A stretch of 64,000 nucleotides of DNA, from the NCBI GenBank assembly GCA_020342235.1, contig CP073214.1, positions 1,984,001-2,048,000 on the forward strand, in the 5' to 3' direction. The position numbers and the translations under genes are program-made. This document shows positions 18,231 to 44,388 of this stretch, in pieces; the first letter of the stretch is position 1; each line of letters opens with the position of its first letter. A model generated the notes under the pieces. That model ran no database searches. It worked only from the letters and a program-made list of their open reading frames with translations, and had not been told where the DNA came from. Source of the DNA: Saccharomycopsis phalli (taxonomy: Eukaryota > Ascomycota > Saccharomycetes > Ascoideales > Saccharomycopsidaceae).

Positions 18231-19459
18231 ATGAACTGGTATCGAGGGTTTTCAACCAGTACGACTTGGCTCTTGAAAAAAGCCAGGGGAAAAAAAAACA
18301 CAGTCCATGAGGTCAAAAACTACTTTGGGCGGCCCAGCAACAATTTGACGGTAAGTAGACCCTTGACTGTGGGCAGTACTAATGACAGGCTGGGATCGTG
18401 GGATTGGCCAATGTAGGAAAGTCGACGTTTTTCCAGGCAATCACGCACTCGGAGCTAGGGAATCCGGCCAACTATCCATTTGCAACAATAGAGCCCGAGG
18501 AGGCACGAGTTGTGGTTCCGTCGCCTCGGCTAGACGTGCTCCAGGAATTGTACCGGTCCAAGAAGCAAATCCCCGCGAGCTTGACGATTTACGACATTGC
18601 TGGGTTGACAAAAGGCGCGTCGAAAGGCGAGGGGTTGGGGAATCAGTTTTTGAACGATATCCGGTCGGTAGATGGGGTTTTCCAGGTTGTGCGCGGGTTT
18701 GTTGACGAGGAGATCACCCATATAGAAGGCAGTGTGGATCCGGTGCGGGATTTGGATATTGTCAAGGATGAGTTGATCTTGAAGGACTATGAGTTTGTGG
18801 AAAAGGCGCTTGAGAAGAGCAGCAAGAAGATGAAGTATCCGCAGTCTCCACAGGAGCTCCAGCAGTTGAAGCTCGAGGTGGCTACGCTAGAAAAAGCCGG
18901 CGACCATTTGATTGAAGGGCGGCGCATTGCGAGTGTGCCAGGATGGACAAACCAGGAGATTCTGGTGCTCAATGGGCACAATTTTCTCACTGCCAAGCCG
19001 GTGGTGTACTTGTTGAATGTGAGCGAGCAGGACTTTTTGGCCAAGACAAACGAGTTTGAGCCGGCCATTCGGCTGTGGATAGCAGAGAACTCGCCCGAAG
19101 ACCAATTGCTTCTTGTTTCGGCGCGGTACGAGGCTGGACGCGGCGAGCAGTCGGCGTTGGATACTGTGATCCAGACCATGCGGCGTAGTCTTCACTTGAT
19201 TAGTTTCTTTACGTGTGGCGACGTGGAGGCGCGAGAGTGGACGTTACGGGAGAATAGCACTGCACCAGATGCTGCTGGGGTTATTCACACCGACTTGAAG
19301 AAGACGTTTATCTCGGCTGAGGTGATGAAGTACCGGGACTTGGAGCAAGCGGGGCCGGCTGATCTCAAGGCCAAGGGCAAGGTGAGTAGGGAAGGAAAGG
19401 GATATATGGTTGAGGACGGGGATGTTATTTTGATAAAGGCTGCGGGGGCCAAGAGGTAG
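18231..19459 (+). CDS. YLF2: Mitochondrial Obg-like GTPase/ATPase Ylf2 (YchF/Ola1 family), spliced
   Basis: Two exons: 18231-18350 (40 codons) and 18389-19459, giving 396 residues, the usual YchF/Ola1 length. Splicing joins ...RPSNNLT to AGIVGLANVGKST, which restores the conserved R-P-x-N-N-L-x-(A/S)-G-I-V-G-L-A-N-V-G-K-S block split by the intron. Motifs: P-loop GLANVGKS, ANYPFATIEPEEA, YDIAGLTKGASKGEGLGN (switch II), GFVDEEITHIEG and a C-terminal TGS-like domain. It matches YHL014C more than OLA1 (FQVVRGF...ITHIEG), and the N-terminus (MNWYRGFSTSTTW) looks like a mitochondrial presequence. Two CTG codons (residues ~232 and ~269) sit where relatives have polar residues. The stop codon lies inside the first unit of a 22-bp repeat. 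Confidence 0.9.
18351..18388 (+). other. 38-nt spliceosomal intron in YLF2
   Basis: 5' site GTAAGT, branch sequence GTACTAAT, 3' site GACAG; only about 5 nt separate the branch A from the terminal AG. Removal joins exons in frame inside a universally conserved motif, so the prediction is strong. Its length is not a multiple of three. Confidence 0.9.
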
Positions 19460-19536
19460 GGTAGAATAGACCAAGAGGTAGGGTAGAATAGACCAAGAGG
19501 TAGGGTAGAATAGACCAAGAGGTAGGGTAGAATAGA
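19449..19536. repeat. 22-bp tandem repeat spanning the YLF2 stop codon
   Basis: Copies starting CCAAGAGGTAGGG begin at 19449, 19471, 19493 and 19515. The first copy contains the last Lys-Arg codons and the TAG stop of YLF2, so the array arose by duplicating the gene's end. Confidence 0.92.
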
Positions 19537-20165
19537 ATGTGAGTAGTATGGTGTAATATGGTGTAGTTCGGTGTATACGGTGTAGTATGGTGTAATATGG
19601 TGTATACGGTGTAATACAGTGTAGTACGGTGTAGTACGATTGGTAATACAGTTGATAATACAATTAGTAATACGATGTAATACAATTGATAATACAATTA
19701 GTAATACGATGTAATACAATTGGTAATATGATGTAATATGACGAGGTACAATTGGTGATACAATTGGTACTTAATCGACTGGCACTTGACACGGTTTTGT
19801 AGTTGAATATACGATTGGCACTTGAAAATATGATTGGCACTTGAAAATATGATTGGCACTTGAAAATACGATAAACACTTGAAAACACGATTTTGTAGTT
19901 GAAAAAACGATAAACACTTGACACGATTGACATTCGTAAGGCATGTCGACTGGCGAAACGGTGGTATTACGACATTGACGACGACACTTTGTACGCTGAT
20001 CATTACCAGGCCTCAAAGATGGAATTTTAATCACGACATTTGGCAACGAGCACCGTGAACTGAGTACTTTAAACTTCACATAGCTTTCCTTCACTTCCCC
20101 ACTTTCCTACTTCCTCACTTTCCTACTTCCTCACTTTCCTACTTCCTCACTTTCCTACTTCCCTC
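19537..20165. repeat. Spacer made almost entirely of short tandem repeats
   Basis: GTGTAATAC/GTGTAGTAC-type units run from about 19545 to 19760, then 19-20-bp units containing GATTGGCACTTGAAAATA from about 19795 to 19935, then 16-bp units TTCCTCACTTTCCTAC at about 20095-20160. It lies between the convergent YLF2 and AYR1. No gene seen; minus-strand ORFs here are repeat artefacts. Confidence 0.8.
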
Positions 20166-21029
20166 TTACACTGACTTTTTGGAATACCTCTTGGCCAAAT
20201 CCCTAAACCATCCGTCCAACGCCATAAACTTGAGCGAAAACCGCACAAGCAACGACCGAGGTAAAAACGTCAGCACCCACCAATTGACCGACGCACCCTT
20301 GCCTCGAAAAGACTCGTGAAAGTTCTCGCGCGACCTGATGGCCGTCTCAAAGTCGTTGACCACCAGCTTGGCAAACACATTGGCTTTGGTCAGCTTCACA
20401 CCTCGAAAGTTAAACTCGCTATGCAGTTCGTCATAGTAGAGCGAGCTCTTGGGGACGGGAGACGACTCGCCAATCTCCGAGTCTACAGCCCCAGCAACGA
20501 TATTCAACACCGTGACGCCAAACGGCTGCGACTCAATTGCCAAAGTGTTGGCGTACGACGCAACTGCAGCCTTGGTTGCAGCATACACTCCAAGCATTGG
20601 CACGGGAATTACACCAGCAACAGACCCAGTAAAGGCAATTAGTCCTTTGGCATTGACCACAAGCCGGTGGAACTCGCGCACGGTTTTCATGAGCCCAAAC
20701 ACATTGACCTCAAACTGCCGTTCAATGGTGTCGTCGCTCAGATCAAAGAGCAAGGTGCTGATTGCAATCCCGGCATTGTAGAAGAGAAGATCCAACTTCC
20801 CGCGGTTTTCCCCGGAAATCGTCTGTCTAGCGGCCCGGACACTCTCAATGTCGGTGGCGTCGAGCCGCAATGGCACAATCTGGTGCTGTCGGAGTGGTTC
20901 CAAGAGCTCGGTGCGTCTGGCTCCAGCATACACTTTGTAGCCTCGGGAAGCAAGTTCCAAGGCCACAGCATAGCCAATTCCCGAGGACGCACCGACAACA
21001 AATGCAACTTTTCGATTCGAGTCGCTCAT
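20166..21029 (-). CDS. AYR1: 1-acyl-dihydroxyacetone-phosphate reductase Ayr1 (SDR family)
   Basis: The ATG at 21029 gives 287 residues (yeast Ayr1: 297); an upstream in-frame GTG at 21041 was not used. It is a short-chain dehydrogenase with the nucleotide motif GASSGIGYA (~12-20), YNAG (~90), the catalytic serine in FTGSVAG (~135) and YAATKAA (~150), followed by a C-terminal substrate and membrane-associating region. Ayr1 reduces acyl-DHAP to lysophosphatidic acid with NADPH on lipid droplets and ER, feeding phosphatidic acid synthesis. The Ayr1 assignment over other fungal SDRs rests on overall pattern and length. Confidence 0.8.
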   Translation of the reverse strand: MSDSNRKVAFVVGASSGIGYAVALELASRGYKVYAGARRTELLEPLRQHQIVPLRLDATDIESVRAARQTISGENRGKLDLLFYNAGIAISTLLFDLSDDTIERQFEVNVFGLMKTVREFHRLVVNAKGLIAFTGSVAGVIPVPMLGVYAATKAAVASYANTLAIESQPFGVTVLNIVAGAVDSEIGESSPVPKSSLYYDELHSEFNFRGVKLTKANVFAKLVVNDFETAIRSRENFHESFRGKGASVNWWVLTFLPRSLLVRFSLKFMALDGWFRDLAKRYSKKSV

Positions 21030-21950
21030 GGCTTGAAACACGCCCGGTGCGGGTATTTATACCCGTGAGACATGTTTCGGCACTCAACGGGACCTAATGT
21101 GCCGTCGCCAATTCTCCGCACCAGCTGTCAATGTGCTGCAATTCGCAGCATTAGGTTTGGACCAATGTGGATATGGCAAAGGGGTACTGGGCTTATATGA
21201 GCCACACTCGCCAAGCGGACATATTTGTCATTACAAAGTACTCTTGCCATTTACCATTACACTTGCCATTTACCATTACACTTGCCATTTACCACTACAC
21301 TTGCCATTTACCACTACACTTGCCATATTACGAAGCTACACATTACAATTGTTACTTGTTATATTACCACTCACCAAGTACACTAGTTGTCAAATTACCA
21401 CTCACCAAGTGCACTTAACATATTTACCACACTTGATGCTACATTTAGTACCACACAAACAATGGTACTACACTTGGTACCGTGCAAGCAATAGTGCCAC
21501 TGTTTTCACAATAGTATTACACTGCACTGGATAGCTCACTAGACGTTTACACTTCTATACGTTTACACTTACTATGTTTACACTTCTATACGTTTACACT
21601 TCTATACGTTTACACTCACTACACTTAACATCACTACACTTAACATCACTACACTTGGCTCTCACGACTACACCATCTAGCTGTAATATATTAGCCTATT
21701 CTGCATTTCTATCCGTCATCTCGTTTATCCTCCACCCTTTACCTTTATCTGGTAGCCTGGTATCCTATGTGTTAGCAAATTCATAAAAAAAGTCAATTCT
21801 GTCAGTACATTTGATCGGTATCTTATCATATACAAAATTTCAAACGAGCTGGGTTTAATGCTATATGGTCATCATGTAGAATTGACATTGTATCATTACT
21901 TACCAGTTGCCCACACTCAAAAACTCTGAAAATTTTCGCCTTATATCCCC
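21030..21950. other. Spacer between AYR1 and MIF2 with short repeats
   Basis: A 19-bp array (TTGCCATTTACCA(T/C)TACAC units) covers about 21240-21335. GTTTACACTTCTATAC and ACTACACTTAACATC units lie at about 21545-21660. The remainder is AT-rich promoter sequence. No gene seen. Confidence 0.7.
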
Positions 21951-21966
21951 GTAGTCACGTGACTAC
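21951..21966. promoter_or_regulatory. 16-bp perfect palindrome centred on CACGTG, MIF2 promoter
   Basis: GTAGTCACGTGACTAC is a perfect inverted repeat 41 bp upstream of the MIF2 ATG. The core RTCACRTG is the Cbf1/CDE I consensus. Confidence 0.75.
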
Positions 21967-22006
21967 GCAGCGGTTTGTTTTTCGCGGGGCGTAAATAGAC
22001 ATTATC

Positions 22007-23080
22007 ATGAGCTACACCAGGGTAGGCGGGCAATCGCGTAAAACTGGTATTATTCCGAGAGAAGACACCCAGCGGGACGCAAACAATTTTGAGAACGTGA
22101 ATGATTTTTTTGAGGTCAATGGCGGCAGCACAGGCGGCGCGACAAGCGCCAAGTCCACAAAGCAGTCGCGAAATCCCACCAACCGCGTCATCCAAGACAC
22201 CGACGAAAACAACTCGGACGTGGTGCTTATAAGCGACGACTCTCCTGCGGAGTATCAGACACCGAAGAAGAAGAAGGAGAAGGAGAAGAAACCCAAGAGC
22301 AACACCGGTCCTCGGACGTCACGGGTGACAAAGAACATTGCACTAAATAAAAACAAGCCCAAGAACATCGAGGTGTCACAGCGGACCCGGCCGCAGCGGT
22401 TCACACATCCGCCGGTGGAGTTTTGGCGGAACGAAAAGGTGATGTACAAATACGGCGCGGACCGGACTCCGTCGGTGGTGGATATTGTGACAAAAGCGGT
22501 GGACGAGGCGCCGCCAAAGAAGGTGAGCAGGAAGAAAAAAACCAAGACGTCGGCCGAGCGCGTGCAGGAAGCTCTTGCCGAGCATCAGAAAAATAACGAG
22601 TTTACCGACGACCAGAAGCGACGCGCCGCGTGGATGAAGCTGGGCAGCATCAAGCTTCTGGTGGTTGATGGCCCGGATTCGACCATAGAGTCAGAGCGGA
22701 CGATAGCATGGGCCAACAACCAGGCCAAGGACATTACAACTGTCGACACCGACCGGGAAAGATATCTGTTGGGGGTGTTGTTCAACGAGGAGCAGGAGTT
22801 TGCGGCGCTGGGCATTCTCCGGTTTCCGGTGGGGGGGATCAAGCTTTCAAGGAACGCTGGCACGTCCTATTTTCTATTCTATGTGTGCAGCGGCACGTTT
22901 GAGGTCAAGATAGGCAAGTCGGTGATTGTGGTGAGCGAGGGCTGTTCGTTTGAGATTCCCATGGGGAATCCGTATGATTTCAAGAACATTGGCAAGGTGG
23001 AGGGCAAGTTGTTTTTTGTGCAGACGCGATATGTTCATGTGCTGAGTGATGTCTATGAGTCGAGTGCCGATGAGGAGTAG
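22007..23080 (+). CDS. MIF2: Inner-kinetochore protein Mif2 (CENP-C)
   Basis: This 357-residue protein is shorter than S. cerevisiae Mif2 (549). The N-terminus (VGGQSRKTGI...NFENVNDFF) matches the Mif2 block that contacts the Mis12 complex. A long basic disordered linker follows, then the CENP-C motif near 125-145 (RTRPQRFTHPPVEFWRNEK), which docks on the CENP-A nucleosome, and a C-terminal cupin domain (~265-350, GILRFPVGGIK ... FEVKIGKSVIVV) that dimerises. It acts at centromeric chromatin linking CENP-A to the outer kinetochore. Codon 268 is CTG in the stretch FAA-CTG-GIL; fungal CENP-Cs have FASG(V/I)L there, which supports CTG read as serine. The start is the first ATG. Confidence 0.92.
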   Translation: MSYTRVGGQSRKTGIIPREDTQRDANNFENVNDFFEVNGGSTGGATSAKSTKQSRNPTNRVIQDTDENNSDVVLISDDSPAEYQTPKKKKEKEKKPKSNTGPRTSRVTKNIALNKNKPKNIEVSQRTRPQRFTHPPVEFWRNEKVMYKYGADRTPSVVDIVTKAVDEAPPKKVSRKKKTKTSAERVQEALAEHQKNNEFTDDQKRRAAWMKLGSIKLLVVDGPDSTIESERTIAWANNQAKDITTVDTDRERYLLGVLFNEEQEFAALGILRFPVGGIKLSRNAGTSYFLFYVCSGTFEVKIGKSVIVVSEGCSFEIPMGNPYDFKNIGKVEGKLFFVQTRYVHVLSDVYESSADEE

Positions 23081-23570
23081 AGCTGGGGTTGATACTATTG
23101 AGGTGAGGAAGGAGTATTGTGGTATAGTAGATTGGTATTGTATAATAGCGGGAGAATAAATGAGATGCAGATGGTGTAGTGTGGATTGGATGTGGATTGG
23201 AATTTGCAATTGGATGTGGATTGGAATTTGCAATTGGATGTGGATTGGAATTTGCAATTGAATGTGGATTGGAATTTGCAATTGAATGTGGATTGGAATT
23301 TGCAATTGAATGTGGATTGGATGTGAATTGGTATATGCAATTGGTACATGGTACGGTCATTTCCGTCATTGTATTTGATTGCTAGAGTTGTCGACTGACT
23401 GTTTGGCTGAGATTGCCGTATCGCTTTTCATATCCGAGTGTACGTGATTCTTGGGTATTTAAATCTGTCCATTTGACAGCGCAGCTGGGAATTGGTTACC
23501 AATGCCTATAATGATATTTCTGTATTAATTACATGTCTGCAAAATACAGTTCTTTGACTAATTTCACCCA
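23081..23570. repeat. 24-bp tandem repeat and spacer downstream of MIF2
   Basis: Units of 24 bp containing GATGTGGATTGGAATTTGCA repeat about six times between 23186 and 23325. The remaining sequence to 23570 shows nothing recognisable. Confidence 0.8.
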
Positions 23571-24050
23571 GGAGCAGGCAGTATGGTTCAAAGAAACTCT
23601 GTAGCAGAGGGAAAAACCTTCAACCGGAACTAGTCAATGGTAGATTAATGGGCATTGGTGGGGAAGTGAGCGTTTCCTAGGTTGTAAGTGACTTGAGCCA
23701 CTCCAGAATCAGAGTACATTGTACGGTTGCCTCCTAACCTGCTGTAGCAAAAAGGAAACCACCAGTACAGCACAGACGAGTAGAATCCCACATGTTTAAA
23801 CTTTACCTTATCTTAAAAGAGCGGGTTGGGCTGGCGGAAGTGATCCCTTTTTGGATCTGTTCTTGGGCTGAAAAAACAAGAGTATTGGGCAGGTAAAATC
23901 ATAAAACGTCAATGGCGTAAGATCCTCCATCTATTTCATAATGGGCTAACCTCTGCGTTAATAGAGTCTCTGTCTTGTATGAAACCAAGCATTGTCTGCT
24001 GAGTAGCTGATCTTGCCGAGTATTTTCTTAGGTCCAACTAGGGCTTCTAA
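23571..24050 (-). mobile_element. LINE family A fragment
   Basis: Homologous to 50540-51030 in the same orientation. Landmarks are GCTGTAGCAAAAAGGAAACC, the CAGCAC(A)GACGAGTAGAATCC block and GGTCCAACTAGGGCTTCT. It covers the 3' UTR start and the end of ORF2; the tail is missing. The coding part is degraded. Confidence 0.75.
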
Positions 24051-24188
24051 GTGTAATTTTGAGAATCTCGCATTTGTTGGAGAATTGGGTTCCAACACCT
24101 GGTACAAGTCTGTGTATTCCACGGAATATAATCAATATCTCACTGATATTTATTCGGGAAACTCGTCCAACATATTTCTGGAAAAGTA

Positions 24189-24845
24189 TCAATTACTACC
24201 GTACTGTATTGACAAGTTCATGAGGTCCTGAGGCTCGACAAGGCTCTTGTTGAATTTGCCGACCTTTTGCTGCTCCTCGTCCTTGTACAAGCCGGTTTTG
24301 TTGTTGATCTGGACCTTGGACCCGAGAAACTGCTTGTTTTTAAAGTCCAAAAACAATAGGATTTGGTCGTTGTTTCTGAGGAGGATCTTCTTGCCCTTTG
24401 ATATTTTCTTGCCCTTTATATGGCACCCGTTGGTGCTGTAGTCAATGAGCCATACGCCGTCCAATCCTTGGGCCGGGGGCTCATAGAAGCTCTTGCCAAT
24501 GGGATGCCGTTTGCGGATGATGATGCAGTGGAATTTTGAGATTTTACTGTCCTCGATGCTGAAGTTGCAATTGCCGTTGCCGCCGATGATGAGAGTCTGG
24601 TATTTCATTCTCAAAAAGTGCATGCTCTGGATGGAGATTATATAGGTGATTGATACCATGGAAATTTGTCCTATATTGTTGACATTTCCGGTTCTGGTGT
24701 CAAATAGCTTGGGCAATAATGCAACTGAGATGCTTGTTCCACAGTAATTGAGATGGCATATGTTGGGCCTGCGAGATGGTTCTGGTCTGTGTTGTATTTA
24801 GTATTTGGACTACGATAGAGTATACGCCTTTTGGTCTATTGTCAT
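24189..24845 (-). CDS. Small FHA-domain protein, spliced
   Basis: Proposed exons 24826-24845 (20 nt) and 24189-24786 give 205 residues: MTIDQKAPEPSRRPNICHLN and onward. The FHA domain spans roughly 65-150: IIGGNGNCNFSIED, the strand with SKFHCIII, and WLIDYSTNGCHIKG, which carries the STNG phospho-peptide loop. No kinase or other domain follows. It could be a stand-alone phospho-threonine reader or the 5' remnant of a checkpoint kinase gene (Dun1/Mek1/Rad53 type, which start with FHA) cut short by nearby LINE insertions. A second FHA feature, the conserved arginine after GG, is not clearly present. No ATG opens the frame without the intron, and the upstream in-frame TAA falls inside it. Confidence 0.55.
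24787..24825 (-). other. Predicted 39-nt intron in the FHA gene
   Basis: 5' site GTATAC (weaker than the GTAAGT of the other two introns), branch-like TACTAAA, 3' site ACACAG. Removing it joins the only suitable ATG exon in frame to the FHA frame. Size and short branch-to-AG distance match the other introns in the window. Confidence 0.5.
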
Positions 24846-24984
24846 TTCTTGGTCTGTATATTTGGTTCTAGGCAATTGCGGAATTCCAACATTGGATGAT
24901 ATTGACAGTTTTTCAGGTTGAAATACACATCGTGTAGCCTTATATTACTCGTTGCTCAAATTATTTGATAATAACCCGAATATC

Positions 24985-25177
24985 TTTAAAGATCTAGGCA
25001 AAAGCTCATTGCTCCTCCAGTGCCAATTAATCTACATATTCATACGCACTAACCAAAGTTTTTTATCTGTCGAAGTTTCTTTCGACAACTACATAACGGC
25101 GCCGTGCTTTGTTGTTGATGGAAAGTATAAATCTCCCATGGGAGCCTAGTATAGCTTTAGCTTTGTATAAATATTAT
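24985..25177 (+). mobile_element. LINE family A, 3' end fragment
   Basis: AAAGATCTAGGCAAAAGCTC, then TTTCTTTCGACAACTACATA and GGGAGCCTAGTATAGC, ending TATAAATATTATTATA. About 190 bp, joined directly to family B. Confidence 0.75.
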
Positions 25178-25625
25178 TATAATGGCCGGAAGTGCAAAAG
25201 ATGTGAGATTCCCCCTCCATCATACATCTCTGCTGCCTAGAGCTCTTGGAAACTTGAATTCTATTACACATTGATGACATACAAATTCCACTCATGGAAT
25301 ACGCAACACGCGGAAAGTGTTTGCCAATCAGTTTACAAACTTGTATAGTTTTATCGGAACGTTTTGGAACATGATTCTCCAGCACATGGTGAGATTGAGT
25401 GGTCAAACTTGAAAAGGGCGATCAGGCTTGCACAAGTGATACAAGTATAATGAGTCAACAGTAAGACCACTTACATTGAAGTATTTATCCCAACCGAATG
25501 AGGGCTGGCAAAGGGTTTCAACAGCAATGCTGCACAGGATATTCCTGAGTGAAGAAATATTTGTCAAATGACCGTATTGCCGGAGGCAATATAGCTAATA
25601 CAAAAATAAATGTATATATGGAGTA
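25178..25625 (+). mobile_element. LINE family B, 3' 450 bp
   Basis: It begins in the end of an ORF that encodes a CKRC zinc-knuckle-like motif (GTGCAAAAGATGTGAG), as in the copy at 62830-63385 on the other strand. It runs through the 3' UTR (GAATGAGGGCTGGCAAAGGG) to TACAAAAATAAATGTATATA. The layout (C-x2-C then 3' UTR then AT tail) parallels family A, so B is a related LINE family. Confidence 0.7.
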
Positions 25626-25639
25626 GAACCAATAATCAT

Positions 25640-26590: not shown

Positions 26591-26594
26591 TCAG

Positions 26595-27165: not shown

Positions 27166-27252
27166 CTACACAATCCATGATTCCAGGTATATTCAATAAA
27201 ACAATATCTAACAAACAATAATACAGTAGAATAAAAGTCGTCACCATCAGCC

Positions 27253-30200
27253 TCAATAATCATCCTTGTCAGCCTTCTTGGAACGGGCATACCGCACCAA
27301 AGGCGAGAGCGAGCGGCACTCGTCAGCCTGAAGAATAAACTCGTCGCCGAGAAGCTGGTCGGCAGTGGCACGGTCGTCTGCCAGCACCTTCAAGCTCCAG
27401 TCCAAAAACGCCTTGAGCACGGGACTCAAAGTGTCAGGCTCCTTGACCTCAGGAGTGCCCAAGGTGGCAATGAGGTATAGCGCACGGAGCGGGGTCTCGT
27501 TCAAATAAGGCGGCTCACCATCGATCATCTCGATGGTCATGATGCCAAGGGACCATATGTCGATCTTGGGCCCATACTCCTTACGACTAACCACCTCGGG
27601 GGCCATCCAGTATGGGGTGCCGACCATGGTGGTGCGCTTCAAGTTGGACTCGTTGATTTGCGCGCAAAAGCCAAAGTCGGTCAACTTGATGTCGCCCGTG
27701 AGCGAGAGCAAGATGTTGTCGGACTTGATATCGCGATGGATCACGCCCTTGGCATGGAGAAACTGCAAACCCTCCAAGGTCTCGCGGCACACTGCTCCAA
27801 TCTGGCCCTCAGTCATGACGCTGTGGGTGACAACCTCTGTGAGCGAGCCACCTTCCATGTACTCCATAATGACCCAGAGGGTTCCCTCCAGGAGGTAGGA
27901 GTCGATGAAGTTGACAATGTTCTTGTGCCGGCTGCCCTTCATGACCAAGATCTCGTTGACAATGAGCTCCTTCTTTGGCTGCTGCTCGAGGTTCATTTGC
28001 TTGATTGCCACCAGCTTGTGGGTACCGTTTTCGTACGCGGTGTACACGCCTCCGCTGGCGCCTTGTCCGATTTTGGTCAACTTGCCGTAGTATTCGCGCG
28101 GATCGCCCTGAGAGCAAATCTTGACGAGTTTCGCGTACACCAACGCATGGCGGCGCTTCTTCTCCTCGCGCTTCTTCATGGCGAGATACGCTGCCTGCTG
28201 CGGGTCACGTGTCGGGTGGGTCTTCTTGATGCGCGGCTGCGGGTTCTGCGCCTCGCGCTGCTCACGTTCCTGGAGCATGCGGAGCCGGTCACGTGCCTCC
28301 TGCTGGCGGCGCTCGGCGTCGGTTGCCAGGTCGCTCTGCAGCCGCAACTGCTGCTGCTTCTGCTGCTGCTGGTAGAACACGTGCTGGCTCGCGTCCTTGG
28401 CTGCCGGGTCACTGGACACCTGCATCATGCGCAGCTGCGAGTCGCTCGTCGCCCGCAGCAAGTCGCGCGTCTTCGACGGCACTGGTGGCGGCACCGACGT
28501 CGGCGGCGGCGTCAGCGCCACTTTCTTCCCGCCAGGCGGTTTCGGCGCCGGGCGGCTCGGAATGTACTCCTTCAGCAGCGGCGCCGTCCGCTTCGCCTCA
28601 AGCGACGTGAGGTGGATGATCTGGTGCCCGCCGGCATAGTCCGTGCCGTTCGCGCTGTTTGCCGGCACAACGTCGTTGACAAAACTGTCGCTGTCGGTGC
28701 TGGCGGAACTGCCGGCGCGCAGCTTGTCGGCATTGAACTTCTTGAAGATCGTATCGTCGGGATCCTGATGCACCTGGTCCTGGTAGAACTCGACGATCTC
28801 GTATATTTCCTGCGGATGCTGCTCCTGCTCGGTTTTCGAGATGCCCAGCGCCGAAAGAAGCTTCTGCCACTCCTCCGGGAGTCCGGTGTATTCTCCGGTG
28901 GCGGAATTGAATCCGACGTGTGCCACGTGCTGCGTGTTGTATGGCGTGGAGATGGACATGGCTGGTTCGAGCATGGTGGATTTTTTGCGGGTCAATTCCG
29001 GTTCGTCTTTTTTTCCAATGGCCATGAAGGTTGAGAGTACGCTGGTGAGGGTGGATTTTTTCTTGGTGAGGAGTGGTTTGTTTTTGTATGGTGTGCTGAG
29101 TTTCAGTCCAAAGGAGATGTTGGATTGGGGTTTGGACAGTGAGTTTTTTCCAGACGGTGAAGGTGCAGAGGGGTTTGAGACTCCTTGGTTTGAGTTTCTT
29201 TGGCTTGATGCTCCTTGGTTTGAGTTTCTTTGGCTTGATGCTCCTTGGTTTGAGTTTCTTTGGCTTGATGCTCCTTGGTTTGAGTTTCTTTGGCTTGATG
29301 CTCCTTGGTTTGAGTTTCTTTGGCTTGAGACTCCTTGGTTTGAGTTTCTTTGGCCTAAGATTTCTTGTCCTGAATTTCTTTGGCCTAAGATTTCTTGTCC
29401 TGAATTTCTTTGGCCTAAGATTTCTTGTCCTGAATTTCTTTGGCCTAAGATTTCTTGTCCTGAATTTCTCAATTGACCAGAATAATCCAACAACTGCCCA
29501 GAATTCCTCGATTGACCAGAATAATCCAACAACTGCCCAGAATTCCTCGACTGCCCAGAATTCCTCGATTGTCCCGAATTCCTCGATTGTCCTGAAACCC
29601 CTGAATAATCCAACTGCCCCGAATTCCCTCCAAAATTCAAATGCCCTGAATTCCCTCCAAAATTCGAGTGCCCAGAATACCCAGAATGGTCCAGGTGCCG
29701 CGCAACCATACTGCCCGAAGCAACTGAAATCCCAGCAAGCATCGGCGGAAGCCGGTCCTCGTCAAAATCCGGACTCTCAGGCCGACCCTTTGGCGCATTA
29801 TACACATTGATAATCGAGCTCGCCTCATTGTTACTAAGACTGCTCTGGAGACTCAACGAGCTCGTCGCTCGCACCTTGTCCGTCTCTGATCCGTCGCTCA
29901 CCCGATGCCGCTCCTCACCATCCTTGAGAAACGACAACCGTACTCGCGTCGTCAATTCGTCCTTTGTTAATACGTCCACGTCCCCCAACTTTTCATCCCC
30001 CATCTTTTCATCCCTTGGCCCTTCCTCCAACTTCTCCTCCTCCAACTTCTCCTCCTGCAAATCATTCACGCTCGTCATGTTGTGGAGCGAACTCCGCTTC
30101 TTCACTTGCACTCCCCGGCTATTATTCATCGGCAGATTGGGCAAACTGTCAAGACTGTCGTACTCAGACGACGAGTTGCTCACCCGCTTAAAACTCACAG

Positions 30201-30351
30201 GCGCATCCAACAGATTAGACGAGTGGTTCTGCGACTTGACCCCGTCCAACTTGGGCGTGCTCGCAGTAAGTGTCAAGTTCAGGCTCTTGTTCAAGACTTT
30301 CGGGTCCATGGTATAGTTTGCGGCGTTCGTGTTCACCGGCGGCGTTTGCAT
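27253..30351 (-). CDS. STE20: PAK-family protein kinase Ste20
   Basis: The ATG at 30351 gives 1032 residues (S. cerevisiae Ste20: 939); the frame extends upstream to 30411 without an ATG. A disordered N-terminus contains a large repeat block (~220-390). A CRIB motif lies near 464-480 (ISTPYNTQHVAHVGFN), binding Cdc42-GTP, then a Pro/Gln-rich linker and a kinase domain ~752-1003 with IGQGASGGVYTAYE, AIKQMNL, HRDIKSDN, DFGFCAQ and GTPYWMAPE. The ending DEFILQ... lacks the long tail of some relatives. IGQGASGGVYTAYE and the absence of a PH domain favour STE20 over CLA4. It is the MAPKKKK at the cell cortex for mating, filamentation and HOG signalling. CTG codons 821 and 990 fall at variable positions. 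Confidence 0.95.
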   Translation of the reverse strand: MQTPPVNTNAANYTMDPKVLNKSLNLTLTASTPKLDGVKSQNHSSNLLDAPVSFKRVSNSSSEYDSLDSLPNLPMNNSRGVQVKKRSSLHNMTSVNDLQEEKLEEEKLEEGPRDEKMGDEKLGDVDVLTKDELTTRVRLSFLKDGEERHRVSDGSETDKVRATSSLSLQSSLSNNEASSIINVYNAPKGRPESPDFDEDRLPPMLAGISVASGSMVARHLDHSGYSGHSNFGGNSGHLNFGGNSGQLDYSGVSGQSRNSGQSRNSGQSRNSGQLLDYSGQSRNSGQLLDYSGQLRNSGQEILGQRNSGQEILGQRNSGQEILGQRNSGQEILGQRNSNQGVSSQRNSNQGASSQRNSNQGASSQRNSNQGASSQRNSNQGASSQRNSNQGVSNPSAPSPSGKNSLSKPQSNISFGLKLSTPYKNKPLLTKKKSTLTSVLSTFMAIGKKDEPELTRKKSTMLEPAMSISTPYNTQHVAHVGFNSATGEYTGLPEEWQKLLSALGISKTEQEQHPQEIYEIVEFYQDQVHQDPDDTIFKKFNADKLRAGSSASTDSDSFVNDVVPANSANGTDYAGGHQIIHLTSLEAKRTAPLLKEYIPSRPAPKPPGGKKVALTPPPTSVPPPVPSKTRDLLRATSDSQLRMMQVSSDPAAKDASQHVFYQQQQKQQQLRLQSDLATDAERRQQEARDRLRMLQEREQREAQNPQPRIKKTHPTRDPQQAAYLAMKKREEKKRRHALVYAKLVKICSQGDPREYYGKLTKIGQGASGGVYTAYENGTHKLVAIKQMNLEQQPKKELIVNEILVMKGSRHKNIVNFIDSYLLEGTLWVIMEYMEGGSLTEVVTHSVMTEGQIGAVCRETLEGLQFLHAKGVIHRDIKSDNILLSLTGDIKLTDFGFCAQINESNLKRTTMVGTPYWMAPEVVSRKEYGPKIDIWSLGIMTIEMIDGEPPYLNETPLRALYLIATLGTPEVKEPDTLSPVLKAFLDWSLKVLADDRATADQLLGDEFILQADECRSLSPLVRYARSKKADKDDY
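29185..29690. repeat. Coding minisatellite in STE20 (30-bp units and relatives)
   Basis: On the coding strand it reads NSNQGASSQR (30-bp unit, about five copies), then NSGQEILGQR (four copies), then NSGQSR/NSGQLLDYSGQ units. All are in frame; the first two blocks are nearly identical at DNA level, so array length probably differs among strains. Confidence 0.92.
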
Positions 30352-33228: not shown

Positions 33229-33264
33229 TAATAAACGCATTGGGTCTCTTGGTTTGACAACCGT

Positions 33265-33271: not shown

Positions 33272-33277
33272 GATATT

Positions 33278-37272: not shown

Positions 37273-37889
37273 AACATGGAAGGCATACCTGTAGGGGGCT
37301 AAAAATAGACGATCTCTTGTGGAGAAAAAGCGTGCCTAAATTAACAAGTAGGGCGGGGCGGCATTACCCAACAAACGTGCAGTTACGTACCAAAAGTACG
37401 GTGACAGCACGCGGGAGTAGGCGGAATAAATGGGAGGAAGTAGGAGGAATAAATGGGAGGGAGTAGCAATGGGGAAGAGGACAATAATAGAAGAGGAGAT
37501 GAGTAACAATGGCGGACAATGATGTTAGTTGAAGCAAGTCTGAAGCTTGCACTTGTATAGCATATTCTGTTTTGACACATTGGATTAAATGGGGGGGGCA
37601 GTCTTGCCAGAGTGGTCAAAGGACCGAAGATATCCGAGGGAAGGGTCCTACCCGGAGAAGAGGCAAGGGAAAATGGAGGGATCTTCGTGTGATTCATGGA
37701 TTTGGGTCTCAGATTTTTCAGCATATAGCCACTAGGCGTATAATCGCCAGGGTTCCGAACAGTGGTTTCGGTAGTATAAAGTATGTCAACTTAGTTGGGG
37801 GATGCATTTAGAAAAAATTGCAAGAAAAAAAAAAAAATACCGTGGTGGAGATTGACCAAGGGATTATAAATTGGATGGAATACTAGACA
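37273..37889. other. Spacer with a possible structured RNA
   Basis: 37400-37520 is purine-rich (GGGAGGAAGTAGGAGG units). 37594-37800 is unusually GC-rich and structured (see the separate entry). A 13-A run lies near 37827-37841. No protein gene is supported. Confidence 0.5.
37598..37785 (+). ncRNA. Candidate Pol III or structured RNA (unidentified)
   Basis: GGCAGTCTTGCCAGAGTGG resembles an A box (TRGCNNAGYNGG). CGAAGAT at about 37624 can pair with ATCTTCG near 37680, enclosing a GGGTCCTACCC hairpin and a GAGGGAAG sequence like conserved region I of nuclear RNase P RNA. GGGTTCCGAAC near 37750 resembles a B box with one extra base. No matching acceptor stem for a tRNA and no clear terminator after the B-like box; TTTTT lies at 37709. 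Identity is unknown. Confidence 0.25.
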
Positions 37890-38243
37890 ATGTATAAAAC
37901 AGGGACTAACAGGCAATCAAAGATGACCAGCGAGCGATTACGGTGTGCATATTGTTCATACAATACCACCCACCACGAGAGTATGAAAAACCATACAATC
38001 ACCTCCCACAAGGCCCACATGAGGTGTTATGGGTGCTTGACTCGGACGTTTGACAACTTGTACGAGATGAAGCGGCACTTGAAGAAGGACCATCCGTCGG
38101 ATTTGCGGGCGTGGGGTTGCTACGACTTGGTGAGCACCCAGCAAAAGAGGACCTTCTTGTACTTTGGGCGGGACCTCCATTCTGGAAAAAGCCGGCAGTA
38201 CTTGTTTGTTGCCAAGTACGAGGTCAATGCTTGCTGTGGGTAG
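37890..38243 (+). CDS. Small C2H2 zinc-finger protein
   Basis: This is 117 residues from the first ATG; the second ATG at 37923 (106 residues, MTSERLRCAYC) may be the true start because the first is followed by a TATAAA and is poorly spaced. Two finger-like units are visible: CAYCSYN...HESMKNHTITSHK (~22-42) and CYGCLTRTFDNLYEMKRHLKKDH (~46-68). After them come a WGCYD segment and a C-terminus ending NACCG. The family is not recognised; the pattern fits a small fungal nuclear protein. CTAACAG just upstream of the second ATG resembles a branch plus 3' splice site, so an unseen 5' exon is possible. Confidence 0.65.
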   Translation: MYKTGTNRQSKMTSERLRCAYCSYNTTHHESMKNHTITSHKAHMRCYGCLTRTFDNLYEMKRHLKKDHPSDLRAWGCYDLVSTQQKRTFLYFGRDLHSGKSRQYLFVAKYEVNACCG

Positions 38244-38646
38244 TGTGGGGATGCGATGGGTTGCTCTCAACGTCAGTTGAGTATATTATACTAATTATAC
38301 TATATGGATTATACTATACCGTTTTTTTATTTTGTACATGTCGGATTTCCTAGGGGAGCGGCTGCACCTCCAAGGGGAATGTGATGTAGGCACTGGTGCA
38401 AGTGAACAATGGGTCGGGAGTGCTGGAATTATTATATATTGTAATGCATGAGTATTGGTTAGCCTAATTAATTAGCGGTATTCACCCAACGGCCGCGATA
38501 TATATATATGTAATTAGCGTATCACACTAGCCGGTAACGTTTGCTTGGTATAACCTGACAGAGAATATGTTGTAGTTGGGAGGGAACCTTATTTACCCAG
38601 GTGTCTTACGATAGCATGTTTTATCACCTCATGTTGCATAGTGTGT
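38244..38646. other. Spacer between the convergent C2H2 and HUB1 genes
   Basis: AT-rich sequence with a TATATATATATG run near 38500. No gene, repeat array or RNA seen. Confidence 0.6.
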
Positions 38647-38868
38647 CTAACTATAGTACAACTCAATATTTGTTCCGTCGTGGATCTCGTAATCGTCCAA
38701 CGTGATGTGATCCTTGAATATCCGGTATCCTTTCTTGAGTAGGATTTTCTCAGCAGCAGTGCCGATTTGTAGCGAGAGCACCTTTTTGAAGTCGCCAATT
38801 GTGTCTTCGGGCAAACATTTCACTTTGATACGCTTGCCCAATCTGTCGTTGCAAACCACCTCGATCAT
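38647..38868 (-). CDS. HUB1: Ubiquitin-like modifier Hub1/UBL5
   Basis: This 73-residue protein has the full-length family pattern: [51 protein letters not shown], then [16 protein letters not shown]. It ends with a double Tyr region instead of a di-glycine, as in all Hub1 proteins, which act non-covalently. Hub1 binds the HIND element of Snu66 in the spliceosome and helps use of weak 5' splice sites. No CTG codons; the start is the only possible ATG. Confidence 0.97.
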
Positions 38869-40409
38869 TTTTGAAGCAGCTTTTGAAAAATTTCATTGAG
38901 CACATGCCACATAGTAGTGGGTTCGGGGCTGGCAATCACCCGCTTATGAGATCTGGTGGAGGAGTGTATTTTTGATTGGTATATTGCAGGGTGTGTGTTT
39001 GGGTTTATTTCTACATGTAATTGAGTATCAATGGGTATTTGGATAGTTTGTTGTAACGGCAGGGTGGAAGGAAGTGGAAGTGGAAGTGGAAGTGTGGGAA
39101 GTACTGCCAGAAGTTCAGTCGAATGTACTGCCAGGAGTACCTTTTTTGATGCGGCAATTGTATTTTGACGAGCCGTGGTGGGTGGGCTGAGGATGTGATT
39201 GTGGTGGGTTGACGATTGGATATGGATAGGTTGGGAGGAAAGGGGAGGAAAGGAGAGGAAAAAGGAGAGGAAAAAGGAGAGGAAAAAGGAGAGACGTGAA
39301 GGTGCAAGGTCGATCATGGTAGAAGCAGGACGATCGAGATGGAAAAAGGACGACCGAGGTGAAAAAGGACGACCAAGGTGGAAAAAGGACGACCAAGGTG
39401 GAAAAGGGACAACCGAGATGGAAAAAAGACAACCGAGATGAAAAAGGTGGCATATTGGCAGAATGGTGGTGGAACGTAGATCTGGGTAGAGCAAGAGGTG
39501 GAACATAGATCTAGGTAGATTGACTGTAATGGAAAGTAAATCAAGGCAGATTGAATGTAATGGAAAGTAAATGTAGGTGGTGCAAGTGGTGGAGCATAGA
39601 TCTAGGTAGATTAAGTGGCAGAAGGTAAATCAAGGCAGATTGAATGTGATGGAAAGTAGATGTAGGTAGTATAAGTGGTGGAACGTAGATGTAGGTAGAT
39701 TGAATGTAATGGAAAGTAGATGTAGGTAGATTGAGCGTGCTGGAAAGTAGGAGGAAGGTAGATTGAGCGTGCTGGAAAGTAGGAGGAAGGTAGATTGAGG
39801 TAGTAAAAAGGTGGGAGAATTGATCAGAGTAGTTGGATAATTGATCAGAGTAGTTGGATAATTGATAGGAGTGGGGAGAATTGATAGGAGTAGGGAGAAT
39901 TGATGGGAGTAGGGAGAATTGATGGGAGTAGGGAGAATTGATGGGAGTAGGGAGAATTGATCAGAGAGCATATCGGAATAACTTGACATGGTAGGCAGTC
40001 GAATGTAATCTAGGTAGATCATGATATCAATGTCAATGGTAATGTACTGCCACATACCAAATCCCAGCTATATCCAACACCATCTGAGTACCTACACTAT
40101 GCAATTGGTGATTTTCATATCAAATCTGTTGAGCCAGTACAGCTGGCTCAATCAGGGTATCAAGCTATACAAGACGCATTGCCTGTAAACCATCTACCCA
40201 ACCACCCAGATCTACCTAACCACATTATCTAGACTAACCCAAACAAAGTCATCTAGACTAACCAACCACATTATCTAGACTAACCAACCACATTACCTAG
40301 TCCACTCGTCCACCCGTCCACTCGCCCACTCGGTCCGCCCGTATCGCTGCATGCCCTCAGCACTGCCTATTTGGGAGTCTTGATTTCTAGTCTGAAAATT
40401 TTCCCCGGC
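38869..40409. repeat. Repeat-rich 1.5-kb spacer (HUB1 promoter to ABZ1 promoter)
   Basis: Successive arrays: AGGAAAAAGGAGAGG units (39235-39295); 19-20-bp GAAAAAGGACGACCAAGGTG units (39320-39440); GTAGATGTAGGTAGATTGA-type units with TGTAATGGAAAGTA (39470-39800); 19-bp GGGAGTAGGGAGAATTGAT units (39805-39965); 22-bp ACCAACCACATTATCTAGAC units (40185-40300). Long minus-strand ORFs here are repeat artefacts. No gene seen. Confidence 0.8.
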
Positions 40410-42578
40410 ATGTCAATATTATTGATTGATTCATATGACTCCTTCACCTATAATCTCCGGAACCTCATTGGCGAGTCAATCCCGGGAAGCCAGATCTACA
40501 CCCTCCACAATGACTCGATTGACGACGCCCAGTTGCTGGCCTTGGAGCACGCCATCAATCGGTCCATCGACTGTATTATCATCGGCCCGGGACCGGGCGA
40601 CCCGAACAACGACCTGGATATCGGGCTCATCAAGCAATTGGTGACCAGCGACAAGTTTGCCGGCATCCCGATGCTTGGAATCTGCCTTGGGTTCCAGGTG
40701 ATTGCCATGGACTGCGGGTACAAAATCTCCCGCTTGGACGACATCAAGCACGGGCAAATATCGGAAATCAGCTTCAAGCAGGACGAGATCTTTGCCGGGT
40801 TCGAGCAGAACTTCAAGAGCGTCCGATATCACTCGTTATTTGCCCGGCCTCTGGACACGGCCCGTCTTGTGGAGTTGGCGTACTCCAACGACCATGAGCG
40901 GATTCTCATGGCCGGAAAACACGCATCGAAGCCGTTCTATGGGGTCCAGTACCATCCGGAGTCGATCTGCTCGGAAAACGGCGCGTTGTTGATCAAGAAC
41001 TTCTGGAATTTTGCCAGCCAATGGAACTCCCGCAGCCGGACGCTTGGTGCGGTTGATCCGCTCTTGAGCCGCCATTTTGTCCACTCCAACGTCCGTCTCG
41101 ACACCGATCCCGACCAGACCCGCGCCGAGACCAAGCGGCGTTCGGTCTCCGAGATCCAGTTCAAGCAGATTCCGTATGCACTGTCCAGCATCGACCTCTG
41201 TAGCACTGTGCGCAACAAGCAGGAGATCTTCCTCCTCAACTCGCTCTCGGAGCCCGGGCAGTGGTCCATTGTGGGCGTACCGATTCCCGAGCAGTCGGTG
41301 GAAATCACCTGGAGTGTTTCTGAGCCCGGAGTCGTGCGGCTCAACAAATGGCGCTCCTCCGACTTTGAACAGATCCAGGTGCCGTCCGTATGGGCTTTTC
41401 TCAAGGATTTCATGGAGCTGCGGTTCTCGCTCAACTCCATTCTCTCCAAGGAGCTTGGCTTGCCGTTCTGCGGCGGACTCATGGGGTTTTTCTCGTATGA
41501 GGCCGGCCAGTTTGTCCAGAGCTCCAGGCTCCAGAACCACCGTCCGGACATCAAGTTGATCTTCATCGAGCGGTGCTTGTTGCTCAACCAGAAAACCAGC
41601 CAGTTGACCGTGCTCAGCATACGCGAAAACGACGCAGCTTGGATAACCTCGATCCTCGACTTGCTCAAACGGCCACGCCACGACGAGCTCGAGCGGCTTA
41701 CGTTGCTCAACGTGTCCAAGCCTCTGAAGCAGGAGTACTTTGACAAGTTCCACAGGTGCCAGGAGTTTCTCCACAGCGGCAGCTCCTACGAATTGTGTCT
41801 CTGCTGCCAGACCAAGTTCTCGCTTCCTGAGTCCACTGACCCGTGGTCCATCTACCTATCGCTTGCAAACAAGAATCCGGCGCCGTACTCGGGGTTCATG
41901 AACTTCAGCGACTCTGTGCTTGTCTCGTCGTCGCCAGAACGGTTTCTCAACTGGCAGAACGACTACTCCTCCAACAACCCGCTGGACTACAACAAAATCT
42001 GCCAGCTCCGTCCCATCAAGGGCACAGTGAGAAAGACCGACTCGCTCAAGTACTCGGACGTCGAGGCGATTCTCAATTCGCCCAAGGAAAAGGGCGAAAA
42101 TCTCATGATTGTCGACCTCATTCGTCACGACTTGTACTCACATGGTGACAATGTCGTCGACAACAAGGTGAGCAAGCTCATGTCCATCGAGGAGTACTCT
42201 ACGGTGTACCAGTTGGTGTCGGTGATTGAGTGCACCATCCCCAACCGAAGAACCAGTGGCTTTGACATTCTTGCCACGTCTCTTCCGCCCGGGTCCATGA
42301 CTGGTGCGCCCAAGAAGCGGTCGGTGGAGATTCTCCAGACTGAGTTGGAGACGTCGGACCGGGGGATTTACAGCGGGGTGTTTGGGTACTGGTCGATTGA
42401 CGACCAGGCTGACTGGAGTGTGGTTATCCGGTCGTTTTTCAGTTATAACGAGCAGGAGGAGGGCAATCGGGTGTGGTATGTTGGGGCTGGAGGGGCGATT
42501 ACGGTGTTGAGTAGTGCTGAAGGGGAGTGGGAGGAGATGAATACGAAGTTGGATAGTATTTTGCAAGTTTTTGAGTGA
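40410..42578 (+). CDS. ABZ1: Para-aminobenzoate synthase Abz1 (PabA-PabB fusion)
   Basis: The ATG at 40410 gives 722 residues; upstream in-frame TTG at 40371 rejected. The N-terminal glutamine amidotransferase (1-~195) has LLIDSYDSFTYNL, GPGPGDP, the nucleophile in LGICLGFQ (Cys ~92) and the His-Glu pair in YHPES (~180). The C-terminal chorismate-binding domain (~250-722) has the anchor motif IKGTVRKTD, GENLMIVDLIRHDL and PPGSMTGAPKKRSVEIL (~626). It makes 4-amino-4-deoxychorismate from chorismate and glutamine in the cytosol, feeding folate synthesis with Abz2. The fused architecture is usual for fungi. A GA/GT microsatellite begins 39 bp after the stop. Confidence 0.95.
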   Translation: MSILLIDSYDSFTYNLRNLIGESIPGSQIYTLHNDSIDDAQLLALEHAINRSIDCIIIGPGPGDPNNDLDIGLIKQLVTSDKFAGIPMLGICLGFQVIAMDCGYKISRLDDIKHGQISEISFKQDEIFAGFEQNFKSVRYHSLFARPLDTARLVELAYSNDHERILMAGKHASKPFYGVQYHPESICSENGALLIKNFWNFASQWNSRSRTLGAVDPLLSRHFVHSNVRLDTDPDQTRAETKRRSVSEIQFKQIPYALSSIDLCSTVRNKQEIFLLNSLSEPGQWSIVGVPIPEQSVEITWSVSEPGVVRLNKWRSSDFEQIQVPSVWAFLKDFMELRFSLNSILSKELGLPFCGGLMGFFSYEAGQFVQSSRLQNHRPDIKLIFIERCLLLNQKTSQLTVLSIRENDAAWITSILDLLKRPRHDELERLTLLNVSKPLKQEYFDKFHRCQEFLHSGSSYELCLCCQTKFSLPESTDPWSIYLSLANKNPAPYSGFMNFSDSVLVSSSPERFLNWQNDYSSNNPLDYNKICQLRPIKGTVRKTDSLKYSDVEAILNSPKEKGENLMIVDLIRHDLYSHGDNVVDNKVSKLMSIEEYSTVYQLVSVIECTIPNRRTSGFDILATSLPPGSMTGAPKKRSVEILQTELETSDRGIYSGVFGYWSIDDQADWSVVIRSFFSYNEQEEGNRVWYVGAGGAITVLSSAEGEWEEMNTKLDSILQVFE

Positions 42579-42613
42579 GAGGGAGGAGAGGTGGAATAAA
42601 TGGGAGAGGGGGA

Positions 42614-42677
<64 letters not shown>

Positions 42678-42694
42678 TGTGTGTGTGTGTGTGT

Positions 42695-42729
<35 letters not shown>

Positions 42730-43397
42730 CGGAAAAGAATGGAAAAATAATAGAAAAAGAAAATTAAAACGAGTGCTGAGAGTCTGAGAGCGTCGAGGGA
42801 AAGATGGTACAGCAATAAAGTGCCAATGCCAAGTGCCGAGTAACGAGGACAACAGACTAAATTGACTTCAAAACAAGGCCAATACTCAAACCCTACAACG
42901 AGTAATACGATCTAATAAGTATACAACTATACTATACAATAATATAAAGCTAAACCAATTCTTTTAAATTGGCAACGTAGTTTGCCGAATTTGCAGTGAC
43001 TTGGCCATGGCGTTGGCTTCCTTGTATTGACTTTCTATTGACTTGTAACGATTTTCCCATTGACTTTGACTTTTTCTTTACTTCCTATACTTTTTCTTTG
43101 ACTTTTTCTTTACTTCTTTTACTTTTTCTTTTACTTTCTCTTCTTCTTTTACCTCCTCGTTCTTCTTTGACTTTCTCTTCTTCTTTTACTTTCTCTTCTT
43201 CTTTTACCTCCTCTTTCTTCTTTGACTTTCTGGTTGACTCCTCCTTACTTCTTGACTCTTCAGTCACTTCTCATTACACTTGCAGCTATGCAAAGCCTGT
43301 GATCCAGTATGTCACGAACCAACCCAACTCTCCAACCCAACTCTCCAACCCAACTCTCCAACCCAACTCTCCTCCACCTCTCCACCTCTCCTCCCCA
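42579..43397. repeat. ABZ1-PPG1 spacer: GA/TG microsatellite and CT-rich arrays
   Basis: (GA)n at about 42617-42674 passes directly into (TG)n at 42675-42728 with a single GG interruption. CT-rich sequence TTTTACTTTCTCTTCTTC repeats at about 43080-43250, and a 15-bp ACCCAACTCTCCAAC array lies at 43315-43370. No gene. Confidence 0.85.
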
Positions 43398-44388
43398 CTA
43401 TAAAAAATAATCTACATAATTCTTGCTAGGCTGAGTATTCATCATCTCAATCTCCTTACTATTCTCCGGACTCTCCTCAAACACATTGAAATAACTATCA
43501 TTGTTATTGTAAATCTCCAAAATACTCGCCTTGTTCCCGCACCGATAACAGTAGTTTGGCGCAGACCACACCGTCGTCACAAGCCCGTTAAAGTATATCT
43601 GGTATCCCTCGTTGCACAACTGGTGTGCCCTGAGAATCTTGTTCATGTTGTTGAGAATCAAAAACTTCTTCACCACATCCACGCCAAACGTGTACCCTGC
43701 GCCCCTAGGACTTAGCTGGAAGTCGTTTTCCTCATCATCGGGATCAGACCACACCAAATCCGCCATGGGACCTTCGTGCGGAATTTCGCGGAAACGGTCG
43801 ACCAACTTGATCTGGTCAATGAGATGCACGTTGGGCGAAAGGCCGCCATGAACACAGAAGATCTCGTTGTTGATGACCACGCTGAGAATGAGAAAGTCAA
43901 ACATGTCGGTGAAATACGTCCAGACTTTGCTGGAGCCGTCGTACTTCCGCTGGCACTCGGTGTAGAACCCGTAGTTCTGGGTGATTTGCCGCGATTCATG
44001 GTTCCCGCGCACTAGATTGATCCGGCTCGGGTACCGGAGCTTGAGGCAGATCAAGAGCGTGATGGTCTCGACGGAAAACATGCCCCGGTCCACGTAATCG
44101 CCAAGAAAGAGGTAATTTGTGTCCGGCGCAAAGCCTCCGATCTTGAAGATCTCAATCAAGTCGTGAAACTGTCCATGGATGTCCCCAATCACCGTCACGG
44201 GAGTGCTGATGTATACCACGTTGGACTCATTGATGAGAAGTTCCTTGAGCTTGCTGCACAATGCTTGGACCGTGACCTCTGGCAATAGCTGCCGCCGGTA
44301 GAGCATGGCGATGCATTTGTCCAAGTCGTAATTAGCTGCGGGTTAGTGTGGATCCTGAGGTGTATTCTTACTTACAACACTGGCTCAT
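43398..44388 (-). CDS. PPG1: PP2A-like protein phosphatase Ppg1, spliced
   Basis: Exon 1 is 44376-44388 (13 nt, MSQC plus one base) and exon 2 is 43398-44335; together 316 residues. Without splicing the frame has no ATG before residue 12 of the family N-terminus. Metal-site motifs: GDIHGQFHD, GDYVDRG, RGNHESR, HGGLSP; C-terminus VDYFL like PP2A-type enzymes. TQNYGFYTECQRKYDG and YCYRCGNKASILE point to PPG1 rather than PP2A (PPH21/22), PPH3 or SIT4. It is shorter than S. cerevisiae Ppg1 (368) because the C-terminal insertion is absent. Ppg1 is the catalytic subunit of the fungal STRIPAK-like (Far) complex. No CTG codon is used. Confidence 0.95.
44336..44375 (-). other. 40-nt spliceosomal intron in PPG1
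   Basis: 5' site GTAAGT, branch CACTAAC, 3' site CCGCAG; about 6 nt between branch site and exon 2. Joins codon TCT and opens the frame to the only upstream ATG. Confidence 0.9.

Follow-up and report, generated by a model that had tools for sequence, protein, structure and literature searches.

Short spliceosomal introns with a nearby branch site predicted in the yeast Saccharomycopsis phalli

The stretch of DNA analysed here (the window) comprises 64,000 nucleotides (nt) of the yeast Saccharomycopsis phalli (GenBank assembly GCA_020342235.1, contig CP073214.1, positions 1,984,001 to 2,048,000) and contains, among others, YLF2, which encodes an Obg-like ATPase; a gene encoding a protein with an FHA domain; and PPG1, which encodes a PP2A-type phosphatase. 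A sequence-only reading of the window had proposed that each of these three genes is interrupted by an ultra-short spliceosomal intron, and the three segments are present with the ends and lengths it gave: 38 nt in YLF2 on the plus strand, and 39 nt in the FHA gene and 40 nt in PPG1 on the minus strand. Our analysis suggests that YLF2 and PPG1 very probably contain ordinary U2-type introns that belong to a class of short ones, most of them 35-50 nt long, and that the FHA segment is a chance motif.

Proposed introns of YLF2, PPG1 and the FHA gene

The three segments were scored with a model consisting of donor, branch site, acceptor and two spacings, trained on 44 introns outside the window that had been selected by the reading-frame test described below; the window's own PPG1 was kept out of the training set. 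The model favours GTAWGT and YACTAAC because the training introns were motif-selected. PPG1 scores 33.3, YLF2 26.8 and the FHA segment 3.05. YLF2 and PPG1 are the only two sites in the window that score at least 26.8, and this value is reached by no site in the reversed window or in any of five second-order Markov simulations. For the FHA score, in contrast, 196 sites in the window are equal or higher, and the controls give still more: 408 when the window is reversed and 244-286 across the five simulations. Judged by the model, two of the three proposed introns, those of YLF2 and PPG1, are supported, and the third is at chance level.

The homologues of YLF2 and PPG1 point in the same direction. 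Removal of the putative intron from YLF2 gives a protein, MNWYRGFSTS...VKNYFGRPSNNLTAGIVGLANVGKS, that is consistent with its homologues: the N-terminus is aligned upstream of the junction in 29 of the 31 homologues displayed, and the alignment across the junction takes in the conserved GRPSNNL..GIVGLANVGKS segment of YLF2/Obg-like proteins. The recorded proteins of the other two homologues (P0014 and P0001, the latter being the top match with 74% identity) begin just 3' of the junction, as would be expected if their genes had an intron at this position. The branch motif of YLF2, TACTAAT, is a variant of the YACTAAC that characterizes the class, and the same layout with GTAAGT and TACTAAT occurs 30 times in the genome against 3 times in the control, two of the 30 having a common donor. 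For PPG1, splicing would place a 13-base exon ahead of NYDLDKCIAMLYRRQLLPEVTV, in agreement with the homologues, and the resulting protein, MSQCSNYDLDKCIAMLYRRQLLPEVTV, fits them when aligned. The very first residues of both spliced proteins differ among species and lie beyond what homologue alignment can check. The closest named yeast is Saccharomycopsis crataegensis for YLF2 (61% identity) and Ascoidea rubescens for PPG1 (84%); Babjeviella, with 57% and 79%, respectively, is a CUG-Ser1 yeast (PMC5951914). Leucine is found in none of 40 homologues at the positions of the two CTG codons of YLF2, where most of them have a polar residue.

The FHA segment could be a genuine but degenerate short intron that gives the protein 49 extra residues, and it does have GT and AG ends, a TACTAAA element and an exon with an in-frame ATG. 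We consider this improbable, since the signals are weak, the score is of chance level in the window and the controls alike, and the GTATAC donor shows no excess alongside YACTAAY in the short layout (6 occurrences genome-wide against 11 in the control, with a pattern that excludes the segment's own TACTAAA). Its spacing also falls outside the class: the donor-to-branch distance of 27 nt is shorter than in all 45 frame-selected introns described below, and the branch-to-G distance of 11 nt is longer than in 44 of them. A homologue search with the spliced protein found no match at E<=0.001 among 316 candidate proteins, and the unspliced open reading frame (ORF) that begins with ATG already encodes a whole FHA domain, which scores 45.9 bits there as against 44.9 bits with the added N-terminus. 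The segment was therefore rejected as an intron. The features of the three genes are collected in Table 1.

Table 1. Positions in the window of the predicted exons and introns of YLF2 and PPG1 and of the FHA-domain gene
Feature	Positions	Strand	Remarks
YLF2 exon 1	18231..18350	+	40 codons, MNWYRGFSTS...NNLT; ATG is the likely start
YLF2 intron, 38 nt	18351..18388	+	GTAAGT ... GTACTAAT GACAG; donor-to-branch 31, branch-to-G 6
YLF2 exon 2 (Obg-like ATPase), stop codon included	18389..19459	+	
FHA-domain ORF, 156 amino acids, intron not required	24189..24659	-	PF00498, 45.9 bits
Proposed FHA intron, 39 nt, rejected as chance	24787..24825	-	GTATAC donor, TACTAAA
PPG1 exon 2 (PP2A-type phosphatase), stop codon included	43398..44335	-	
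PPG1 intron, 40 nt	44336..44375	-	GTAAGT ... CACTAAC CCGCAG; donor-to-branch 32, branch-to-G 7
PPG1 exon 1	44376..44388	-	13 coding bases, ATG AGC CAG TGT T; predicted start

Short tandem repeats lie on both sides of YLF2. Upstream of the gene (17820-18170) there is a 'ttatttactagatta' run together with about four copies of a 'atatatcaccaccttatcctcttcctatatcaatc' unit, and a unit bearing 'gaccaagaggtagggtagaata' is repeated in tandem around and directly 3' of the stop codon (19450-19540). Elsewhere in the window, a plus-strand ORF of 432 amino acids (27736-29034) runs antisense inside the ORF of a PAK-type kinase (27253-30351); it contains 33 CTG codons and is likely to be spurious.

Predicted short introns across the genome

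The sequence-only reading had also described the introns as short spliceosomal introns with the branch adjoining the 3' splice site, and this description extends from the window to a class that is found throughout the genome (14.1 Mb in 8 contigs). The pattern GTAWGTN{9,39}YACTAACN{0,12}YAG, which restricts the whole intron to 67 nt and the stretch between ACTAAC and the intron end to 15 bases, has 118 matches as opposed to 33 in the reversed control. The same motifs with N{40,70}, corresponding to total lengths of 56-98 nt, show no excess (27 versus 27). To judge from these counts, the short class explains the surplus of strict-motif introns at lengths of up to about 98 nt. U2-type signals (GTAWGT, an ACTAAC-type branch and YAG) in excess over chance are thus present in YLF2 and PPG1, but not in the FHA segment.

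The candidates were next considered in terms of reading frame. The candidates were drawn from the first 95 of 100 matches listed, out of 118 in all; the remaining five of the list and the 18 beyond it were left out. Five that had a donor in common with another were merged, giving 90 distinct candidates. In 48 of the 90 the downstream ORF has 100 codons or more, and in 45 of these 48, including PPG1 of the window, the unspliced frame closes nearby. The sequence of one locus (L020) starts only at the first candidate's donor, which leaves this candidate without an upstream exon; it is not among the 45. With the phase set by the downstream ORF alone, an upstream exon that has an ATG or is open to the locus edge is found in 42 of the 45 correct joins and in 16 of 90 wrong joins, and the open stretch upstream has a median of 37 codons in the correct join versus 12 in the wrong frames. 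Retention of the intron would place an in-frame stop inside it in 38 of the 45.

The 45 frame-selected introns are 35-56 nt in length, with a median of 40, so that even the shortest of them does not match the length class of about 25 nt described in PMC5014332. The distance from the donor G to the branch A has a minimum of 28 and a median of 32. Among all 90 candidates one has a donor-to-branch distance of 20 and none has 21-27, in a search that allowed distances of 20 or more; the candidate at 20 proved to be the beginning of the DBP2 intron described below. The branch A and the terminal G are 5-8 nt apart in 41 of the 45 introns and no more than 10 nt apart in 44.

Conserved protein sequence across the junctions provides additional support. 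Ten spliced proteins, picked by eye from 25 listed, were scanned against Pfam, and in six of them a domain spans the junction: a histone of the H2A type (43-nt intron), the helix-hairpin-helix of a Rad51-type protein (46), FtsJ (41), a TFIIS N-terminal bundle (36), LSM (47) and a Tim10-type finger (57). In the other four (Fyv6, CI-B8, PEMT and a homeodomain protein) the domain ends at the junction or lies beyond it. Removal of the short segments therefore restores a conserved reading frame by several measures, namely the frame test, these six domains and the YLF2 and PPG1 alignments.

Two sets of candidates deserve separate mention. One locus (L023, G000:C1:1182389-1192388) contains two short-intron candidates in opposite-strand genes that are about 1.5 kb apart, one of them a homeodomain gene, and is possibly a mating-type locus. 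Two further loci (L091, G000:C5:1175765, and L094, C6:217813) carry near-identical 58-nt motif matches with short downstream ORFs, and are probably copies of a dispersed repeat rather than introns.

Intron length and branch spacing

The near-uniform length of the three proposed introns had been taken as a sign that the spliceosome of this yeast accepts only introns in a tight window near 38-40 nt, a suggestion that much longer introns elsewhere in the genome would contradict. Long introns in ACT1, RPS6 and DBP2 are frequent in yeasts. The size window was examined on these three genes, of which ACT1 and RPS6 were sought deliberately and DBP2 was found by chance. Actin and ribosomal S6 were assigned by Pfam matches, and the third gene we take to be DBP2 from the appearance of its protein. 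ACT1 contains a 119-nt intron within codon 4 (MDA-E), with a GTATGT donor and a branch-to-G distance of 9 nt. RPS6 contains a 159-nt intron after MK, also with a GTATGT donor, and a branch-to-G distance of 7 nt, its length and spacing being read by hand. The DBP2 intron is 203 nt long, with a GTAAGT donor and a branch-to-G distance of 10 nt, and ATDVAARGID was joined across it by script. All three have conserved protein on either side of the junction.

A tight size window would account for the 14 frame-selected introns of 38-40 nt, for the 31 of 45 that do not exceed 43 nt, and for the absence of any surplus of the strict motifs at lengths of 56-98 nt. The spread of 35-56 nt among the 45 speaks against it, and introns of 119-203 nt occur in all three genes, so that the tight window was dropped; we regard it as very unlikely. 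A branch motif within about 10 nt of the AG is found at every length seen, in 44 of the 45 short introns and in all three long ones (7-10 nt), and total length is therefore not narrowly limited. What look constrained, from the sequences compared, are the branch-to-AG spacing and the minimum donor-to-branch distance.

A second TACTAAC and a TAG lie in the first 27 nt of the DBP2 intron (L022:5001-5203, G000:C1), closer to the donor than the 28-nt minimum for the branch would allow. This 27-nt candidate, considered as an even shorter intron, was rejected because it is the start of the 203-nt intron. Long DBP2 introns are tied to autoregulation in related yeasts (PMC13148404), and for this reason the internal TACTAAC and TAG are possibly a decoy.

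These observations suggest a simple arrangement. The branch A would mostly lie 5-8 nt ahead of the terminal G, so that the acceptor would be the first YAG past the branch. Intron length would then be governed almost entirely by the donor-to-branch arm, which would be about 28 nt at its shortest and would have no near ceiling. This minimum may mirror the geometry of the spliceosome, and exon ligation may here seldom depend on the assistance by which second-step factors make distant acceptors usable.

Several points weigh against the reading of YLF2 and PPG1 as members of a short-intron class. To go by the control, some 33 of the 118 matches would be due to chance, and the 67-nt ceiling of the search leaves the ratio of short to long introns outside its reach. 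The 42 of 90 candidates with a downstream ORF below 100 codons stood outside the frame test; within the test the joined frame fails in 3 of the 45, and one of the 45 has a branch-to-G distance of 15. The YLF2 score of 26.8 is lower than that of any of the 44 training introns, the lowest of which has 28.1, because the training demanded YACTAAC. The exon join was read by hand in two of the three long introns (ACT1 and RPS6). A wider scan, run with no control over 246 kb of loci that had been picked for their short introns, accepted joins as long as 1000 nt if 60 open codons flanked them on both sides. It returned 12 rows, nine at 35-46 nt and the others at 62, 203 and 783 nt, the 783-nt row having the same acceptor as a 38-nt candidate. 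Finally, the excision of both introns is deduced from DNA, which is also the one point in favour of regarding such stretches as frameshifts, pseudogene damage or assembly errors that resemble introns; this is extremely improbable in view of the 118 versus 33 matches, the outcome of the frame test (42 of 45 for correct joins, 16 of 90 for wrong ones) and the conserved nature of the genes affected (H2A-type histone, Rad51-type, LSM). The short-intron reading thus rests on the motif excess, the restored frames, the conserved protein across the junctions, the spacing and the three long introns with a like 3' end, all of which are observed; that the introns are actually spliced is what we infer from them.

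Splicing factors and other yeasts

Loss of Slu7 or Prp18 was considered as a cause of the short 3' end and rejected, as both families are present in the genome (Prp18, 133.9 bits; Slu7, 51.7 bits), together with Fyv6 (49.8 bits). The Slu7 match contains one TAA, which, to judge by the translation, we take to be the gene's own stop. FYV6 itself (L047) has a 37-nt intron candidate (G000:C2:2066253-2066289) immediately 3' of the part encoding its conserved N-terminal domain. Slu7 and Prp18 are important in S. cerevisiae when branch and acceptor are at least 12 nt apart, and Prp22 and Fyv6 when they are 21 nt or more apart (PMC11651659). Here only one of the 45 introns reaches 12 nt and 44 have 10 nt or less, yet the genes for Slu7, Prp18 and Fyv6 are kept. 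We tentatively raise the possibility, which we think rather unlikely, that a strict lower limit of about 28 nt between donor and branch, together with a near-zero acceptor search, places many introns near the minimum of the budding-yeast spliceosome while Prp18, Slu7 and Fyv6 are still kept. If true, these factors act independently of the branch-to-acceptor distance, or persist for a minority of introns.

The donor has A at position +4 in 42 of the 45 introns, a preference that has been linked in yeasts to METTL16 and SNRNP27K (PMC10581693). The genome has a match to PF05971, the METTL16-type methyltransferase domain; this family also matches 5 of 14 prokaryote control genomes, and the gene is therefore a candidate whose orthology is unproven. 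SNRNP27K is represented by a PF08648 match with the RQYMNR motif, the M of which is, in our reading, the conserved methionine Met141. The +4 A thus occurs together with a METTL16-type gene and with SNRNP27K carrying the conserved methionine, in agreement with PMC10581693. The donors of the long introns (GTATGT in ACT1 and RPS6, GTAAGT in DBP2) are too few for a claim.

Introns of S. cerevisiae have a GTAWGT donor, a TACTAAC branch and a YAG acceptor, signals that are common to both yeasts. The TACTAAC motif of S. cerevisiae is also given in PMC2483917. The two differ in length: the minimum annotated intron of S. cerevisiae, as used for read mapping, is 49 (PMC4202332), and the class here goes down to 35 nt. 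The premise of the sequence-only reading, that most budding-yeast introns exceed about 50 nt and have a distant branch, is too narrow, since both close branches and introns of 37 nt are published (PMC2483917, PMC13148404). RNA-guided annotation of Saccharomycopsis schoenii, also of the Ascoideales, lists 884 introns with a median of 113 bp and a range of 37-2318 (PMC13148404). GT-AG introns there are thus as short as 37 bp; the median differs from the strict-motif class here, which is mostly 35-50 nt and represents only part of all lengths.

Close branch sites are reported by Irimia and Roy (2008) for Debaryomyces hansenii, Eremothecium gossypii, Candida lusitaniae, C. guilliermondii and Yarrowia lipolytica (PMC2483917), in which the ACTAAC motif likewise lies a few nucleotides from the AG. 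Counted as in that paper, 3-5 bases separate TACTAAC and AG in 39 of the 45 introns here; the corresponding figures are 6-8 in D. hansenii (65% of introns), 4-5 preferred in C. lusitaniae, 3 in C. guilliermondii (few introns) and 2 in Y. lipolytica. Median intron lengths there are longer (89 in D. hansenii, 65 among 13 introns of C. guilliermondii and 204 in Y. lipolytica). Short length and a close branch are both already known in budding yeasts, and the present yeast adds a further case.

The short-intron class is useful for annotation and for questions about second-step factors. Annotation pipelines that adopt the S. cerevisiae minimum of 49 (PMC4202332) would miss introns in conserved genes of this yeast, among them those of the H2A-type histone and the Rad51-type, TFIIS-type and LSM proteins.

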